Assembly: GCF_001477655.1 (NCBI RefSeq)
Contig: NZ_CP011266.1
Span: forward strand, 545,001 to 609,000
Length of the DNA stretch: 64,000 nt
Direction of reading: 5' to 3'
From: Methanobrevibacter millerae
Lineage (GTDB): Archaea; Methanobacteriota; Methanobacteria; Methanobacteriales; Methanobacteriaceae
The number at the start of each line of letters is the position of its first letter. Position 1 is the first letter of the stretch. Of the stretch, positions 4,328-16,710 are shown piece by piece. The notes beneath the pieces were generated by a model that searched no databases, was not told the DNA's origin, and was given only the letters and a program-made list of their open reading frames with translations. The position numbers and the translations under genes were made by a program.

Positions 4328-4432
4328 ATGTTAGAACAGGATGTAAATGGAGTGCCTCATGTTTTAGTTCCAAAAGAGGTATGGGATAAAATATGGGACG
4401 TTTTTGATAGAATTGAAAATGTGGGTGAATAG
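4328..4432 (+). CDS. Small phage protein, 34 aa
   Basis: A 34-codon frame starts in the third copy of the GTCGCC box, with AAGGAG upstream at 4312-4317, and stops at 4430-4432. The next gene starts at 4434, one base after the stop, and its GGTGA ribosome-binding site lies inside this frame, which supports both being translated. The sequence has two tryptophans in VWDKIWDVFDRI, an amphipathic helix. Function unknown. Confidence 0.45.
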   Translation: MLEQDVNGVPHVLVPKEVWDKIWDVFDRIENVGE

Positions 4433-6057: not shown

Positions 6058-8028
6058 ATGGCTACCGGTAAAGCACTGTTAAAAAAATACATTAAAGAAA
6101 CACATAAAAAAGAGATTGACAAACTCAAATCTCAAAATAAACAGTGTAAAGTCAGTATTGATTATGATGATTTAAATCAATTCCTGATTGATCAATCCGG
6201 GAAAGATTTCTGGAAACATAAAATATATGAGTTCATTAATCAGATGGATGAATATTTCGATACTGGCAACGTTACCTTAAAATTCATAAACGTGCCTGAA
6301 AGAGATAACCTCCATGATTTGGATGCTACATATAACAATGAATGGATAAGCACCAAAGCAATGATTAAAAACATAACTGACGTCCGTGTTGATTTAAAAA
6401 CTGCCTGTTATCTTTGCAGAGAATGTGGAAAACGGCACTTCTTGCACATCTCCAACCCCACACAGCAAACAAGGGTTCCACCTTTTTGTGATGGTTGTGG
6501 TGCAAGAAGCAAATCCATGAATTTTGATAAAGAAACAAGTATTTACAGGAATTATAGATTATTGAAACTTGAAGAACCATTGGAGTTAAGGAGTGGAGGT
6601 TCAACAAGAGAATTTAAAGCTATTGTTTTAGATTTTCTTGCATCTCCATTCACTAATCTGAAAGTAGGTGATGTTGTTAATGTAACTGGCCTTTTCAAAA
6701 TTGAACCTAGAAAAATTAAAGGCCGAAGTGACGGATTTGAGTTCATAATTCATGTTCACAACATTACTCCTGTAGATGATGTTTTTGAAGATTCAAGGAT
6801 TAGTGAAGAGGACATTAATGAAATAATCAACCTGTCTAAACAGGATAATGTTTTTGATTTGTTGTGGAGGACTTTAGCTCCTGAAGTTTACGGTCATGAA
6901 ACTATCAAGAAAGGTTTGATACTTCAATTATTTGAAGGAAATAGGCCGATTTCTGATGTGTTCAAATCCGAGAATATGGACAGATGGACAATACATATCC
7001 TATTAATTGGCGATCCTGGAATCGGAAAAAGCCAGTTAATACAGGCTATGAAAAAACGTGCACCTAAAAACATTACTATAAGCGGAACCAACACATCACA
7101 AGCAGGATTAACGGTTTCGACCGTAAAAGATGAATTGACCGGAACTTGGACAATGGAAGCCGGTGCAACAGTACTGGCAGATACTGGTGTTTTATGCATT
7201 GATGAATATGATAAGCTTTCCCCTTCAGCACAGAAATCACTTAACGAACCCATGGAACAGTCAAGTGTTTCAAGTGCTAAAGCGGGACTGGTACAAACAA
7301 TGTCTGCAAGAACATCAATACTTGCCGGTGCAAATCCAAAATATGGCAAATTTGACAGATATAAATTATATCGGGACCAATTGGAAATACCAGAATCCAA
7401 CTTGTCCCGTTTTGATTTGATATTTGCCCTTGAAGATGATGTGGATAAAGAAAAGGATTCTAAACTTGCTGATGCATTGCTTAATAAAGATTTCATCCTT
7501 GATGAATCTGAAACAATAGCTATTGATCTATTTAAAAAATACATAACATGGATTAAAGCCAACTGCTTTCCAGTATTGAGCAGAGATGCAAAAATACTCC
7601 TTAGGGAGTTTTATGTTGATACAAGAAAAGTTGCTTCACAGACAAGTGACGGAAAACCCATAACTGCAAGGGATTTAAAGGCTTTGGAGAGATTAACAAT
7701 AGCTAGAGCAAAATGTGAATTTCGCTCCGAAGCTACAATCAAAGATGCAATTGAAGCTATTGACATTTACAAAGAAGCATTAAAGGGTTTAGGATTATCA
7801 TTAGCAACAGCAGGTGAGTTATATGGAGTTCATTCACAGGATGAATTAAGTGTTATTTCTGATATGGAAAATATGATTAGAAATAATATCGATATGGAAG
7901 GGGGCATGTTATCTTCTGAATCATTGAGGCATTTGGAAATTGAATGTGGCATGTTATGTCATGAAAAAGGTATAAATCGAGAGGGGATTTTTGACATTGC
8001 ATATGAGAATGTGAAAAAAACTCTTTAA
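6058..8028 (+). CDS. mcm: MCM replicative helicase, phage-encoded
   Basis: This 656-residue AAA+ helicase should unwind the phage genome as a ring-shaped hexamer. The N-terminal domain carries a zinc-binding set, C117, C120, C123, C144 and C147, followed by an OB-type region to about 240. The ATPase domain has Walker A GDPGIGKSQ (318-326), Walker B VLCIDEYDK (378-386), sensor GANP (424-427) and the arginine finger SRFD (450-453). A helical C-terminal extension follows. Virus-borne MCM genes are known in archaeal mobile elements and are usually derived from host genes. It follows two possible DNA-metabolism genes and is followed at once by iteron-like repeats, so the origin may be here. Confidence 0.97.
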   Translation: MATGKALLKKYIKETHKKEIDKLKSQNKQCKVSIDYDDLNQFLIDQSGKDFWKHKIYEFINQMDEYFDTGNVTLKFINVPERDNLHDLDATYNNEWISTKAMIKNITDVRVDLKTACYLCRECGKRHFLHISNPTQQTRVPPFCDGCGARSKSMNFDKETSIYRNYRLLKLEEPLELRSGGSTREFKAIVLDFLASPFTNLKVGDVVNVTGLFKIEPRKIKGRSDGFEFIIHVHNITPVDDVFEDSRISEEDINEIINLSKQDNVFDLLWRTLAPEVYGHETIKKGLILQLFEGNRPISDVFKSENMDRWTIHILLIGDPGIGKSQLIQAMKKRAPKNITISGTNTSQAGLTVSTVKDELTGTWTMEAGATVLADTGVLCIDEYDKLSPSAQKSLNEPMEQSSVSSAKAGLVQTMSARTSILAGANPKYGKFDRYKLYRDQLEIPESNLSRFDLIFALEDDVDKEKDSKLADALLNKDFILDESETIAIDLFKKYITWIKANCFPVLSRDAKILLREFYVDTRKVASQTSDGKPITARDLKALERLTIARAKCEFRSEATIKDAIEAIDIYKEALKGLGLSLATAGELYGVHSQDELSVISDMENMIRNNIDMEGGMLSSESLRHLEIECGMLCHEKGINREGIFDIAYENVKKTL

Positions 8029-9960: not shown

Positions 9961-10362
9961 TTAGATACCCTTTACATTAATTCTTTTTTCTCTTGCAAAT
10001 TCCTTATCAAAAGTAACTAAATAATCCAAATTATATTCCATTACTGTTACAATCATGCCAGAATCCGTAAAGCTTAGTTTACCATCAAATTTATTAAATA
10101 TTTTAATAGTTTTTGAATTATAATGGGGTATCGTATGTTCATTTATAATTTTAAAGTTATCTATCATGAAGTAATACATTGTTTCTGCTTTTTCAGCATC
10201 CCCTTTTAAATTAACAACATTAACAACTTCTTCTATTACATTATCTCCAATATAACAATCTTCAGATAATAAGTCTCTAAGTTCTAATGCTTTTTCTTTA
10301 TTACTATCGTTTTCTAACGCTAATGCAATTATAAATGAACTGTCGAAATAATATTTTTTCAT
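9961..10362 (-). CDS. PIN-domain toxin (VapC-like)
   Basis: This 133-residue protein has the PIN ribonuclease acidic set: D7 in YYFDSSF, E44 in the first helix pair, D100 in LSFTDSGMI and D119 in VTFDKEF. PIN toxins cleave RNA, frequently tRNA or rRNA, when freed from their antitoxin. Its ATG overlaps the stop of the upstream AbrB-like gene by four bases, the standard antitoxin-then-toxin order. The pair may stabilise the prophage or act in abortive infection. Family membership is firm from the motifs; the RNA target is unknown. Confidence 0.88.
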   Translation of the reverse strand: MKKYYFDSSFIIALALENDSNKEKALELRDLLSEDCYIGDNVIEEVVNVVNLKGDAEKAETMYYFMIDNFKIINEHTIPHYNSKTIKIFNKFDGKLSFTDSGMIVTVMEYNLDYLVTFDKEFAREKRINVKGI

Positions 10363-10592
10363 TTCTTATATACCTCTCTTTTTAATTCAACACTATTTGT
10401 AACCTCTTTTGTTTTAACAATACCAATTATATCCTCTATATTGACTTTGTTTCTGAAGTTAACTTCTGGTTGCCCATCATCAGTTATTCCCCATTCTACA
10501 ATAGTTTCATCATTTATATCAAAAGCTTCTCTCATCTCTTTTGGGATGGATGTTTGGAAGTTTTTATATATTTTTGTATTTGCTACCATCAT
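10359..10592 (-). CDS. AbrB/MazE-type antitoxin
   Basis: A 77-residue protein starting MMVANTKIYKNFQTSIPKEMREAF, the swapped-hairpin AbrB/SpoVT fold used by VapB- and MazE-type antitoxins. The N-terminal half binds DNA; the C-terminal part (about 50-77) would wrap the toxin active site. It is the first gene of the pair and probably represses its own promoter in the AT-rich gap upstream (10593-10700). Partner assignment rests on the ATGA overlap with the PIN gene. Confidence 0.85.
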   Translation of the reverse strand: MMVANTKIYKNFQTSIPKEMREAFDINDETIVEWGITDDGQPEVNFRNKVNIEDIIGIVKTKEVTNSVELKREVYKK

Positions 10593-12233: not shown

Positions 12234-12293
12234 TATATATTTATATAAAATAAGTAATAAAATATATAATAAATAATATAATAAAAAGTGATA

Positions 12294-13244
12294 ATGATGA
12301 GGCATGAACTTTTTGAAGTCGGATCATATGACTATTCCGATCTGGACAATCGACTTGACAAACCTGTTGAATGGACTGAAGATGATCTAAAGCTAATAGC
12401 TGAAAACTACCGTGGAGGAATTCCTTTAACTTCTGAGCATGACAATATCTATGTCGGTATTGGAAACAATATCTCTTATGAAAAAGGTAAGCTATTCATT
12501 GAAGTTCCGGATGAACTGGATATGGAAGGAAAAGGTCTGTCCCCTAAAGTTGATGTCTTGCTGAAAGATAATGGAGATTCATTTGGAATTGATACTATGA
12601 GCTTAATAGATGTTGGTGTAACTAAAAACCCTAGAAAAATTACTTTATTGAATTCTGAAATAACTGAAGATGTTGGAGAAACCAGAACTCATGAGCCACA
12701 ACCTCATCCTCCCAGTAAAGATGCTAATGTAGCAACTAGTCTGTTATTGGAGAAATTGCAGGGCAAGGATGCAGAAATTGGAAAGCTTCAGGATGAAATA
12801 AATAGCTTAAAGGAAGAATCTGAAAAATATGATGAAATAAAAAAAGCTATTGAAGAAAATAAGGAATTCATAGACAGTAAAGATGAAATCCTAAAAGAGT
12901 TATCAGAACTCAGAAAAGCCGAAAATGAAAGAAAAATAAAAGAGTACGAATCTAAATACAACTTTAACTATAATGAAAATGCACAGGATAAGGAAATAAT
13001 TGATAAACTATTGTCTGGTGATGTTGATATGGAACTGATGGAAAAACTGGCAGAGAGAAGAATACAAATAGAAGCCAGTAATGACGGTTCAACGCCTGGT
13101 GGAAGAAATCCTGAAAATTCTGGAAATGAGGGAGAAGTCGGTGAAACCGGCAGTACATCTGATGAAAATGCACCTTCCTTTACTACCCGTGAAGAATATA
13201 ATAAGATTTTAAAGGACATGGGATTCAACAGAACTAGAATATAG
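12294..13244 (+). CDS. Prohead maturation protease/scaffold
   Basis: The N-terminal 120 residues resemble Mu gpI-type phage maturation proteases: a short SEHD motif, a central GLSPKVDVLLKD strand and VGVTKNPRK, the last being a common end of the protease core. His of SEHD and Ser of GLSP are the plausible catalytic residues. Residues 150-225 form a long charged coiled coil and the C-terminus is low complexity, as in scaffold domains removed on maturation. GTG 12288, ATG 12294 and ATG 12297 are all possible starts. It follows the portal gene with an A/T-only promoter-like gap of 60 bases. Confidence 0.75.
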   Translation: MMRHELFEVGSYDYSDLDNRLDKPVEWTEDDLKLIAENYRGGIPLTSEHDNIYVGIGNNISYEKGKLFIEVPDELDMEGKGLSPKVDVLLKDNGDSFGIDTMSLIDVGVTKNPRKITLLNSEITEDVGETRTHEPQPHPPSKDANVATSLLLEKLQGKDAEIGKLQDEINSLKEESEKYDEIKKAIEENKEFIDSKDEILKELSELRKAENERKIKEYESKYNFNYNENAQDKEIIDKLLSGDVDMELMEKLAERRIQIEASNDGSTPGGRNPENSGNEGEVGETGSTSDENAPSFTTREEYNKILKDMGFNRTRI

Positions 13245-13249
13245 CTATG

Positions 13250-13860
13250 ATGGTGTATTTTTGTTGCTTTTTACACTGGAGCTAGATTTTTCATGAATCC
13301 CTCGTTATTTGATGGGGAAGTGATTTTTTATACATTTTCTCACTTCTCCTGATATGCTGTATTGATACCCTTAATGCCTAATTAATGGGGGACAAGCCCT
13401 CATTTTAATTGCCCATGAGTGCCAATACAAATTAATTTAAGTTTACAAAACTTAACCCGAACCGACCGATAAATGGTCGGTTCTTAAATTTGACAAATTT
13501 AATAATTCCAAACCATAAACTCGGAACAGGGGGACAAGCCCCTGTTCCTCGAAACTTGATAGTACATTAATTGGGGGATCTATAGTATAGGCCTTTCGCT
13601 AACGCTCAAGGCGTCCAGTTCGACCTATGGTCGGACGGAACATCGAGATAAGATTGAAAATATTATTTTTATTTTGTAGAGTGGATTACGGAACCGACAA
13701 CTGGTGTCGGTTCCTTATTAAGTATATACTCGCCAATTCTATTCGCCCCCACCTATACCATGCCTTCCACATATGCTTCCCTTTGGTCAGCATAGGGTCG
13801 GCATGGTTATGGTGGGGGCGAATTGGCTCGTTTATAACGTGCGGTATGGAAGTTGGATTT
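13250..13860 (+). ncRNA. Candidate large structured RNA, about 600 nt
   Basis: This GC-richer stretch follows the scaffold gene and contains a chain of hairpins: 13314-13323 with 13340-13349 (10 bp, one G-U); 13358-13364 with 13423-13429 enclosing 13384-13391 with 13397-13404 (8 bp, one G-U); 13437-13444 with 13448-13455; 13459-13467 with 13475-13483 (9 bp perfect); 13484-13491 with 13495-13502; 13523-13532 with 13539-13548 (10 bp perfect); 13619-13625 with 13629-13635 (one U-G); 13690-13699 with 13705-13714 (10 bp perfect); and a long arm 13732-13764 with 13800-13827 having a five-base bulge and a 3x3 internal loop. The 13-mer GGGGGACAAGCCC occurs in two hairpins. The wobble pairs fit a plus-strand RNA. 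No coding frame explains this. Size and phage context recall GOLLD and ROOL, but no identity is claimed. Confidence 0.8.
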
Positions 13861-13926: not shown

Positions 13927-15303
13927 CTAATTATTTTCGATATTTTGTTTAAGATTGTTTATTAATTTTAATATTTCAATTAATCTTTCGTTATCTTGAT
14001 TAAAATAATTTAAGAAAATTTCATATTCATTCATATCTTTAACATATTCTTCAAATTCCATTAAAAACCAAATTAAACTATCACAAACTGATTTAATAAC
14101 ATTCCTATCATTTTGTGTAATTTCACTAATATTTTCGTGGATTAACTTATTTCTTTTTTCTTTAATATAATAAATTCTCATTTGATATGATTTGGGATAC
14201 TTGTAGTGTTTAAGTATTTTTCTCATATAATTTATCACATAATTATCTGATCTATCAATGCCATTCTTAATTATTCTTTCACTTAACGTCCAGAATTTAA
14301 GAAATGATATATCTAAATCAGCCTCATTTGATGCTTTGTAATATAATATCAGATATTCATTTATTTGATAAATAATTTTTTTATTTTTGGATCTCATTAA
14401 AATTTTATAAAAATCATATAATAAATTTGTATTTGAAAATTTAATTAATTTTGATTTTTCATATGTTTCACTATCTTTTAAAATACAATATGAATTAAAT
14501 TCATCGCCAATAAAAGTATTATCTTCATTCAATTCATGAATTGAAGAAATTTTTATGTCAGATAGATTATAGTCTACACTTAATGTATTTGCTCTAAACA
14601 TTTTAACATTTTTTCGAAATAAATGTAAGAATGATAAATATCCAAAAAATAAATATACTCGATTAATTGCTTCTTTTTCCATCATGTAAAAACTTTTTCC
14701 TTTTGCAATATATTCCAGCATAATATATTCAGTTTTAAAATCTTTTCTTAATTTTTCATCTTCAAAAGATAAATTATTTGGATTAAATATCTTTAAATTA
14801 AATAAATGCAACATTTCACAAAATTTATCTTTGATTGAATCTATTAATTCAATATTTGTGTAAAAAATAAATTTTATTTTAAAATTATTTGTTGTTTTTG
14901 AAGAGTGGGCTATTTTATTTATTTCAACTAAAAATTCATTTAGAATATCCTCATCGTTTTGATATTTTACATTATTCAATATCCTAAAAATATGTATTAT
15001 AAATTCTTTTTCAGTGATTTCATCATTCATTTCATTTTCAAAAGTTGTAGTCTCTTTTAAGTATGACCAAACAAGATTTTGATAATATTCTATATTTTTG
15101 CTTGTTGACAAACGTCCGTCTTCATCTTCATCAATAATCTTTGATCCTTCAATTAATGTTTCTTTCAAAGATTTCAAGTGAGAAGATTTATTTTCTTTAA
15201 ATTGAATTGGTTGTTTAGCTAATTTTAAAAAGACTCCACAATGATTGCAGTATTTTGAATTTTCAGGTATGTTTTTATTACCGCAGTTTTCACATGATTG
15301 CAT
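13927..15303 (-). CDS. Zinc-ribbon protein with HEPN-like (Apea) C-terminus
   Basis: A 458-residue protein, very AT-rich and on the strand opposite to the phage genes. It starts with a zinc ribbon (C4, C7, then CNHC) and has a long helical middle. Near residues 380-415 the segment KEKRNKLIHENI carries the R-x4-H motif of HEPN ribonucleases, flanked by helices (FLKFWTLSERI before, SVCDSLIWFLMEF after) as in Apea/abortive-phage-type HEPN domains. Such proteins are often single-gene RNases of defence islands. Assignment rests on the motif and helix pattern only. It directly abuts the candidate structured RNA, so the two could form a unit, but their orientations are opposed. Confidence 0.6.
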   Translation of the reverse strand: MQSCENCGNKNIPENSKYCNHCGVFLKLAKQPIQFKENKSSHLKSLKETLIEGSKIIDEDEDGRLSTSKNIEYYQNLVWSYLKETTTFENEMNDEITEKEFIIHIFRILNNVKYQNDEDILNEFLVEINKIAHSSKTTNNFKIKFIFYTNIELIDSIKDKFCEMLHLFNLKIFNPNNLSFEDEKLRKDFKTEYIMLEYIAKGKSFYMMEKEAINRVYLFFGYLSFLHLFRKNVKMFRANTLSVDYNLSDIKISSIHELNEDNTFIGDEFNSYCILKDSETYEKSKLIKFSNTNLLYDFYKILMRSKNKKIIYQINEYLILYYKASNEADLDISFLKFWTLSERIIKNGIDRSDNYVINYMRKILKHYKYPKSYQMRIYYIKEKRNKLIHENISEITQNDRNVIKSVCDSLIWFLMEFEEYVKDMNEYEIFLNYFNQDNERLIEILKLINNLKQNIENN

Positions 15304-15522
15304 ATTTTAGGGTTTATTATTTATGATATAAATTGCTATTTATTTTTCTTTATTTACCGAAAGAGTTTATCTATTACAGATAGGGCTGTTAATGTTGTTC
15401 TTAATCAAACTTCATGATATAGATAATTGTCTGTGAAAACACTTTTTAAAAGTGGAATCATTAATGTTAATATTACTTTTTTTATTATATTATTTATATA
15501 AATAAGATAATAAATATTAATC

Positions 15523-16710
15523 ATGACATTAATTAAAGAATTACAAATCAATATTTCAATGAGTAATTTCACTGAAAGGAGTAGTAGCTATTCCTCAAAT
15601 TATGATTATATATTGTTAGATTCTCTAGCTGGTAGTTCTTATTCAAGCTTATTCCGAAATGATTTGAAAAATCTAAAAATCAAAACATTGGATGGGACAA
15701 ATTGTCCAGTACTATATCTTCCAGCTTATGAATCTAAACCTGCAGTTATTCTTGTTAGAATTCCAGTTGCTGAAATTTCACAGACAACTAAATTAATTTT
15801 AGCAGTATATGATAAGTCAACTACATTTTCAAGTTCACTTTCTACTTCTGGTGAGGTTCAATTTTTTGATGCAAATAGTGATACATACTCAGATTTTTTT
15901 GAGTCATGTTCTGGTTTAAGTGTTGAATATGATTCAATTGATTCGGGAAATGTGATACGTTCACGTTTTGTTCCAATGGATGTCTCATGTTTATGTACTA
16001 AAAATTTATCAGGCCAATCATGTGCAAATGGCAGAGTAGTTTTTGCCAGGTTTAAAAGGGCTGGTGGAGCTATTACTACTTATGATTCTTTTAACTATCC
16101 ATATGGCAGTGATGAACTATTAATATCTGTATTTATGCAAACAGATTATAATTTAACACCATATCATGAAGATATGAAATTTAGTTCCATAATAACTGGA
16201 CAAGAGAAAGACTATTGTTTACTTGATGGTGTTAGTGATTTAGTAATGTCTTCTTCATGGGATGCATATAATTCAGGAACTGATGAGGAAGGGGACTGGA
16301 AACAATACCATTATCATATGAGAGCAGGAACGGGATTTTCAGTTAGTTCTGATTATTTGGAAGGATTTAGTAGAAACAATCCAGCACATATTCATCAAAC
16401 AAGTTATGATGAAGTAATGATTGATGCAACATTTTATGAAGATTCTGAATTATCAGATTTCAATTATTTGGATTTAAAATGGCTGCTTGTATTTCCATCC
16501 CCATTATTTGCAGCTAATGGTATTCCAACAATAACAGTTACAGAAAAAGATTCTAAACATGGAATTAGATTATATAAAGGAATCCATGAATATCCTAAAG
16601 CCTATAAAGGAGCTATATTATTGTGGGATGCTAATGATGAGAATTTAGAAGATACCGGACTGCATCTGCCGGATAAAATAATTAATCATAACTGGGATTG
16701 GGTGTTTTAA
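15523..16710 (+). CDS. Virion surface protein (DUF2341-like segment)
   Basis: A 395-residue, beta-rich, serine/tyrosine-rich protein without membrane segments. The stretch VILVRIPVAEISQTTKLILAVY resembles the end of DUF2341-type carbohydrate-binding modules. Cysteines occur as CLCTKN and SGQSC. It is preceded by the A/T-only promoter-like element (TTATTTATATAAATAAG) and ends one base before the next gene, starting the virion surface operon. A receptor-binding, neck or tail-tip role is reasonable from position; no direct homologue is recognised. Confidence 0.65.
   Translation: MTLIKELQINISMSNFTERSSSYSSNYDYILLDSLAGSSYSSLFRNDLKNLKIKTLDGTNCPVLYLPAYESKPAVILVRIPVAEISQTTKLILAVYDKSTTFSSSLSTSGEVQFFDANSDTYSDFFESCSGLSVEYDSIDSGNVIRSRFVPMDVSCLCTKNLSGQSCANGRVVFARFKRAGGAITTYDSFNYPYGSDELLISVFMQTDYNLTPYHEDMKFSSIITGQEKDYCLLDGVSDLVMSSSWDAYNSGTDEEGDWKQYHYHMRAGTGFSVSSDYLEGFSRNNPAHIHQTSYDEVMIDATFYEDSELSDFNYLDLKWLLVFPSPLFAANGIPTITVTEKDSKHGIRLYKGIHEYPKAYKGAILLWDANDENLEDTGLHLPDKIINHNWDWVF

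Follow-up and report, generated by a model that had tools for sequence, protein, structure and literature searches.

The DNA analysed here, hereafter the window, is a 64-kb stretch of the complete 2,543,538-base genome of Methanobrevibacter millerae SM9. The strain has a single prophage, 49 kb long, that includes an MCM gene (PMC4987999); an MCM gene was located at 6058–8028 of the window, and the structured element described below lies inside the provirus. The portal gene before the element was roughly 90% identical to the annotated portal of Methanobacteriales virus vir323, and the protease directly upstream shared about 86% identity with the prohead protease annotated in the same virus and 78–92% with those of relatives. 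No tRNA was found in the 64 kb window. The features of the locus, in window coordinates, were as follows.

12288–13244, plus strand: prohead protease gene, whose TAG stop codon forms the first three bases of the element.
13242–13845, plus strand: the whole structured element; homology and constraint extend from the stop codon to near TTATAAC.
13242–13284, plus strand: hairpin H0, with outer stem TAGCT/AGCTA and inner stem GGTGT/ACACT, present in nearly all copies.
13314–13349, plus strand: hairpin H1, variable in sequence with the stem kept; its mismatches are G.U and never A.C.
13359–13428, plus strand: module C, a closing helix GTATTG...CAATAC around hairpin H3 with loop ACAAG.
13439–13510, plus strand: module D, a hairpin AAGTTT/AAACTT and the hairpin at 13459–13483 (GAACCGACC/GGTCGGTTC); alignment A6.
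13523–13548, plus strand: module E, a hairpin GGAACAGGGG/CCCCTGTTCC that holds the second copy of GGGGGACAAGCCC; alignment A4.
13591–13641, plus strand: module F, two hairpins (13591–13612 and 13613–13641) preceded by the conserved linker CTATAGTAT; alignment A4.
13690–13714, plus strand: module G1, twin of the D hairpin, with a loop that is mostly GGNRAG in relatives.
13731–13830, plus strand: module G2, a long imperfect hairpin; alignment A2.
13831–13838, plus strand: conserved 3' edge TTTATAAC, near-invariant in alignment A2 and similar to an archaeal TATA box.
13927–15303, minus strand: accessory (cargo) gene in the variable slot, encoding 458 aa with a zinc-ribbon-like N-terminus.
15493–15522, plus strand: conserved TATA-type promoter (TTTATATAA...) of the next late gene at the right edge of the slot, seen in the aligned upstream regions of 22 viruses.

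Judged by its resemblance to a TATA box, the 3' edge TTTATAAC could itself serve as a promoter. The slot genes behind the element differ from virus to virus and may point in either direction. In relatives the cargo comprised a MatE transporter, flavodoxin-like, GmrSD restriction, Schlafen-type helicase, TPR and other proteins, and a slot reserved for defence was rejected on account of this mixture. The late promoter reads TTTATATAA...GATAATAAAATATTAATC and in many relatives is preceded by GTTAATGTTAATGTT repeats, which are possible regulator sites. The 395-aa late protein behind it (15523–16710) shows only approximately 60% identity among viruses with portal proteins that are approximately 90% identical; it gave no convincing Pfam match, and its N-terminus appears DUF2341-like by eye. 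An assignment of this gene as the major capsid protein was dropped, as vir323 annotates HK97-fold head proteins elsewhere and the predicted structure reached a pLDDT of 34. Another accessory spot, before the portal gene, holds a PIN-domain protein and a small partner gene that are toxin-antitoxin-like (9961–10592).

Two small frames were noted next to copies of the element. A conserved, cysteine-rich open frame of 28 residues (MFCKWYYHGCC..CPCD..GSCGLKE) lies directly 3' of the element, chiefly of compact forms (locus L044 at 4338–4421; also L089, L091, L072, L053, L081, L087, L090 and L093). A protein of 70–77 residues with a hydrophobic C-terminal stretch was observed at L177:8788-9018, L177:7918-8109, L179:7978-8181 and L087:7748-7972; in L177, where it forms a tandem pair, and in L179 it stands behind decayed 3'-domain copies in host DNA.

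The original prediction was of a large structured RNA at 13250–13860, in about 600 bases without a gene. The region was right, while its true limits were found to be 13242, at the protease stop codon, and approximately 13845. Within them lies a noncoding array of about 10 hairpins, with the helices where they had been placed. The plus-strand fold of 13245–13860 reached −218 kcal/mol compared with −156.7 ± 6.7 for shuffled sequences (z = −9.2), and 0 of 20 shuffles were as stable. The minus strand of the region gave z = −8.5, and over 33 copies the mean was −8.6 on the plus and −8.4 on the minus strand. The strands are thus equal and choice of strand by folding energy was rejected. The repeated 13-mer was also recovered: the window contains GGGGGACAAGCCC at 13387 and 13529 and nowhere else, compared with 0.07 expected occurrences, and the related pattern GGGGACAAGCCCC, at one mismatch or fewer, is found at those two sites only in the whole genome. 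The nearly identical stems at 13459–13483 and 13690–13714 were confirmed, as was a GC content (0.35–0.44) above that of the accessory gene directly downstream (approximately 0.16–0.30). A conserved protein encoded by the homologues, named beforehand as evidence to the contrary, was looked for and no open reading frame common to the element copies was found. A coding sequence was rejected since the frames within the element differ among copies, and stop-codon readthrough was rejected since in the window a TGA follows two codons after the TAG.

With few exceptions, intact viral copies start at the protease stop codon and share one orientation, and where the protease tail is intact the stop is almost always TAG. 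Synonymous sites of this tail vary freely, codons 2, 4 and 5 from the end being identical in 32–38% of pairs only. The left boundary is therefore sharp, no conserved promoter lies directly upstream of the element, and a promoter of its own at that place is not supported. A strongly conserved separate promoter stands before the next late gene, beyond the slot.

About 45 homologues were found at the same site, directly 3' of the protease stop, in related Methanobrevibacter viruses and proviruses, together with about 12 decayed copies, solo or fragmentary, in host intergenic regions. By DNA search, relatives turned up in 37 of the family's 139 genomes, spread over 5 of 17 genera with the majority in the same genus, as well as in virus vir323. 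A profile of the 3' domain matched 29 of the order's 151 genomes, every one from the same family, with nothing further found across the phylum, and a module D profile agreed on this distribution. The pattern scan of named genomes indicated Methanobrevibacter of rumen and other ruminant origin, and searches of viral contigs returned one contig only, matching vir323. Two contigs labelled Acholeplasmatales and Bacilli (L105 and L114) also hold the element and are probably mis-binned Methanobrevibacter virus DNA. Individual genomes gave 1–7 matches, mainly at the viral site, and the element's own genome gave one place only; a high-copy mobile repeat was rejected on these counts. Solo host copies L065, L083 and L084 appear virus-derived because they include about 21 bases of the protease end.

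The modules follow a fixed order, H0-H1-[C]-D-[E-F or X1-X2]-G1-G2, in which they may be lost, duplicated or swapped, resulting in lengths of about 240–880 bases. Compact forms lack C, E, F and G, and long forms repeat E-F or D-E-F. Hairpin tips have been exchanged between positions, and in locus L060 the twin hairpins D and G1 seem to have fused. In one related virus, L171, the protease is present and the element is missing, and several other viruses keep part of it only.

Selection on the element was evident from its conservation. Among 13 full-length copies identity was 91% at paired and 73% at unpaired positions, compared with 55–64% at fourfold-degenerate sites of the flanking genes, so that constraint on the element exceeds that on the silent sites of its neighbours. 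Across the four domain alignments, both sides were altered in 25 of the 98 helix pairs. These included 3 pairs in module C (alignment A3, 97% of cells paired), pairs 15–32 and 16–31 in module E (A4) and 13 pairs in G1 and G2 together (A2); in the inner stem of H0 one pair varies between G-C, G-U and A-U. Paired cells, double-change cells and covariation score exceeded all shuffled controls, and paired cells and covariation score exceeded slid controls. Under a tree-based null in the style of R-scape few pairs were significant, as the stems vary little, and every one of them fell inside the structure. Watson-Crick pairs filled 93.5% of helix cells in phage copies compared with 80.6% in decayed host copies (Fisher p ~4e-18, on cells that are not independent), the lower pairing in host copies being as expected of remnants. 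The element is real, selected and noncoding.

Compensatory changes alone do not prove an RNA, and comparison of G.U with A.C mismatches against an RNase P control gave results that differed by part of the element. It had been claimed that G-U pairs single out the plus strand, and for the 5' hairpins this was borne out: H1 mismatches were 7 G.U and 0 A.C, and in H0 G.U recurs while A.C is rare. For most helices the claim failed. Helices C to G of phage copies contained 22 G.U and 35 A.C cells (18 and 20 distinct). The control, archaeal RNase P RNA from this genus on a structure selected without G.U, contained 14 G.U and 0 A.C (counting distinct events, Fisher p = 0.006). Counted by unique hairpins the numbers were 19 G.U and 8 A.C (p = 0.05), and as the two counts disagree the measure depends on the counting. 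H0, H1 and the G1 loops, whose variation stays mostly within the GNRA-like GGNRAG, are the only parts that look like sense-strand RNA. Whole-hairpin swapping and template switching, the latter described in PMC8794818 as able to create and maintain hairpins, can yield compensatory changes without G.U intermediates; the pattern thus weakens, and does not refute, a role as RNA.

At a probability of roughly 0.5, the element is explained as the 3' untranslated part, structured and modular in build, of the head (portal-protease) transcription unit in a family of tailed viruses of Methanobrevibacter. Transcription would run through the protease stop codon into the RNA-like H0 and H1 and on into the GC-rich hairpin array with its conserved single-stranded linkers, which most likely would act at the RNA level. 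The array would end and stabilise the head transcript and would keep it separate from both the accessory-gene slot and the following late gene, which has its own promoter. The repeated loops and linkers would probably bind a viral or host protein, and a processed RNA may accumulate. The start at the stop codon, the one orientation, the constraint, the compensatory changes, G.U in H0 and H1, the GGNRAG loops and the presence of a promoter only before the next gene argue for this explanation, whereas the missing G.U excess in C to G, the equal folding of both strands, the related virus without the element and the partial copies argue against it.

The main rival is a DNA-level hairpin element, a possible if unlikely reading by which the inverted repeats form cruciforms or single-stranded DNA hairpins, for instance as a site of replication or recombination next to the slot in which accessory genes are swapped. 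Such a site would fit with G.U being about as frequent as A.C in helices C to G, unlike in RNase P RNA, with the equal folding of the strands, with whole hairpins being swapped, duplicated and fused between twin stems as in L060, and with neighbouring accessory genes that vary from virus to virus. It accounts poorly for the preference of the 5' hairpins for G.U on the sense strand, for GNRA-like loop variation and for a single orientation with a start at the stop codon.

Large structured noncoding elements are already known in bacterial phages. The level of GOLLD RNA, for one, rises during lysis and the RNA assembles into a cage. GOLLD and ROOL are both phage RNAs that form cages (PMC12286853). 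Rfam covariance-model searches gave no match at gathering threshold for the window. The GOLLD and ROOL covariance models were not matched either, with no GOLLD hit at E ≤ 5 in the region or at E ≤ 1 in six related loci. The element is hence not a member of GOLLD or ROOL. It resembles GOLLD in being a large structured noncoding (pro)phage element with many hairpins and with one part more conserved than another (PMC12286853), but differs in lacking a covariance-model match, in residing in an archaeal virus as a modular hairpin array of variable length, and in its place behind a protease gene with no tRNA in 64 kb, whereas GOLLD is often near tRNA islands. Likewise it shares with ROOL, named for its rumen origin, a large size and a link to phages (PMC12286853), ROOL being phage- or prophage-encoded and the element being found in the SM9 provirus (PMC4987999) and in virus vir323. 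It differs from ROOL in having no covariance-model match, no tRNA neighbours, gain and loss of modules, and a strand that is inferred. REP-type palindromes are, like the element, intergenic hairpins that are near-identical at several positions and swap. The repetitive hairpin-forming elements of sponge mitochondria share these traits (PMC2800124). In contrast to such dispersed palindromic repeats, the element is present in only a few copies per genome, almost all of them at a single viral site, and keeps its module order fixed and its linkers conserved.

That the element is a GOLLD/ROOL-like viral RNA acting in trans, which would be processed out of the late transcript and would assemble in infected cells alone or with protein, is improbable. 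The size, the ornate structure, the late-gene site in a provirus, the conserved unpaired segments and the example of the cage-forming phage RNAs would suit it, but a length of about 240 to 880 bases is hard to fit with one precise fold, there is no tRNA nearby and Rfam gives no match. Of the original prediction, a noncoding, structured and selected element with compensatory changes, in an archaeal virus and outside Rfam, has been upheld; a free-standing large RNA was not established because of the lack of a conserved promoter, the lack of a G.U excess in most helices, the equal folding of both strands and the variable number of modules. Selfish hairpins that have little function themselves and stay perfect through template switching during replication are very improbable, for although they would produce double changes that skip intermediates, as seen at the loop-closing pair of D (alignment A6: C-G 14, A-U 13, G-C 7, G-U none), the unpaired linkers are conserved too, the module order is fixed, copies are few and mostly in one place, and host copies lose pairing.

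No description of a large structured noncoding element in an archaeal virus was found in the literature or RNA families searched, and the element is previously unlisted and absent from RNA databases. Probably it represents a novel type of structured RNA of viruses, a role at the DNA level being the less likely alternative. That it founds a new class, namely a large modular structured RNA of archaeal tailed viruses that would be the tail of the late head message, be processed and function as an RNA or RNA-protein assembly during virion production, is a tentative and rather doubtful proposal. Since the element is present in the cultured strain M. millerae SM9, its transcription is directly testable, and the hosts of these viruses are methanogens that contribute to ruminant methane.
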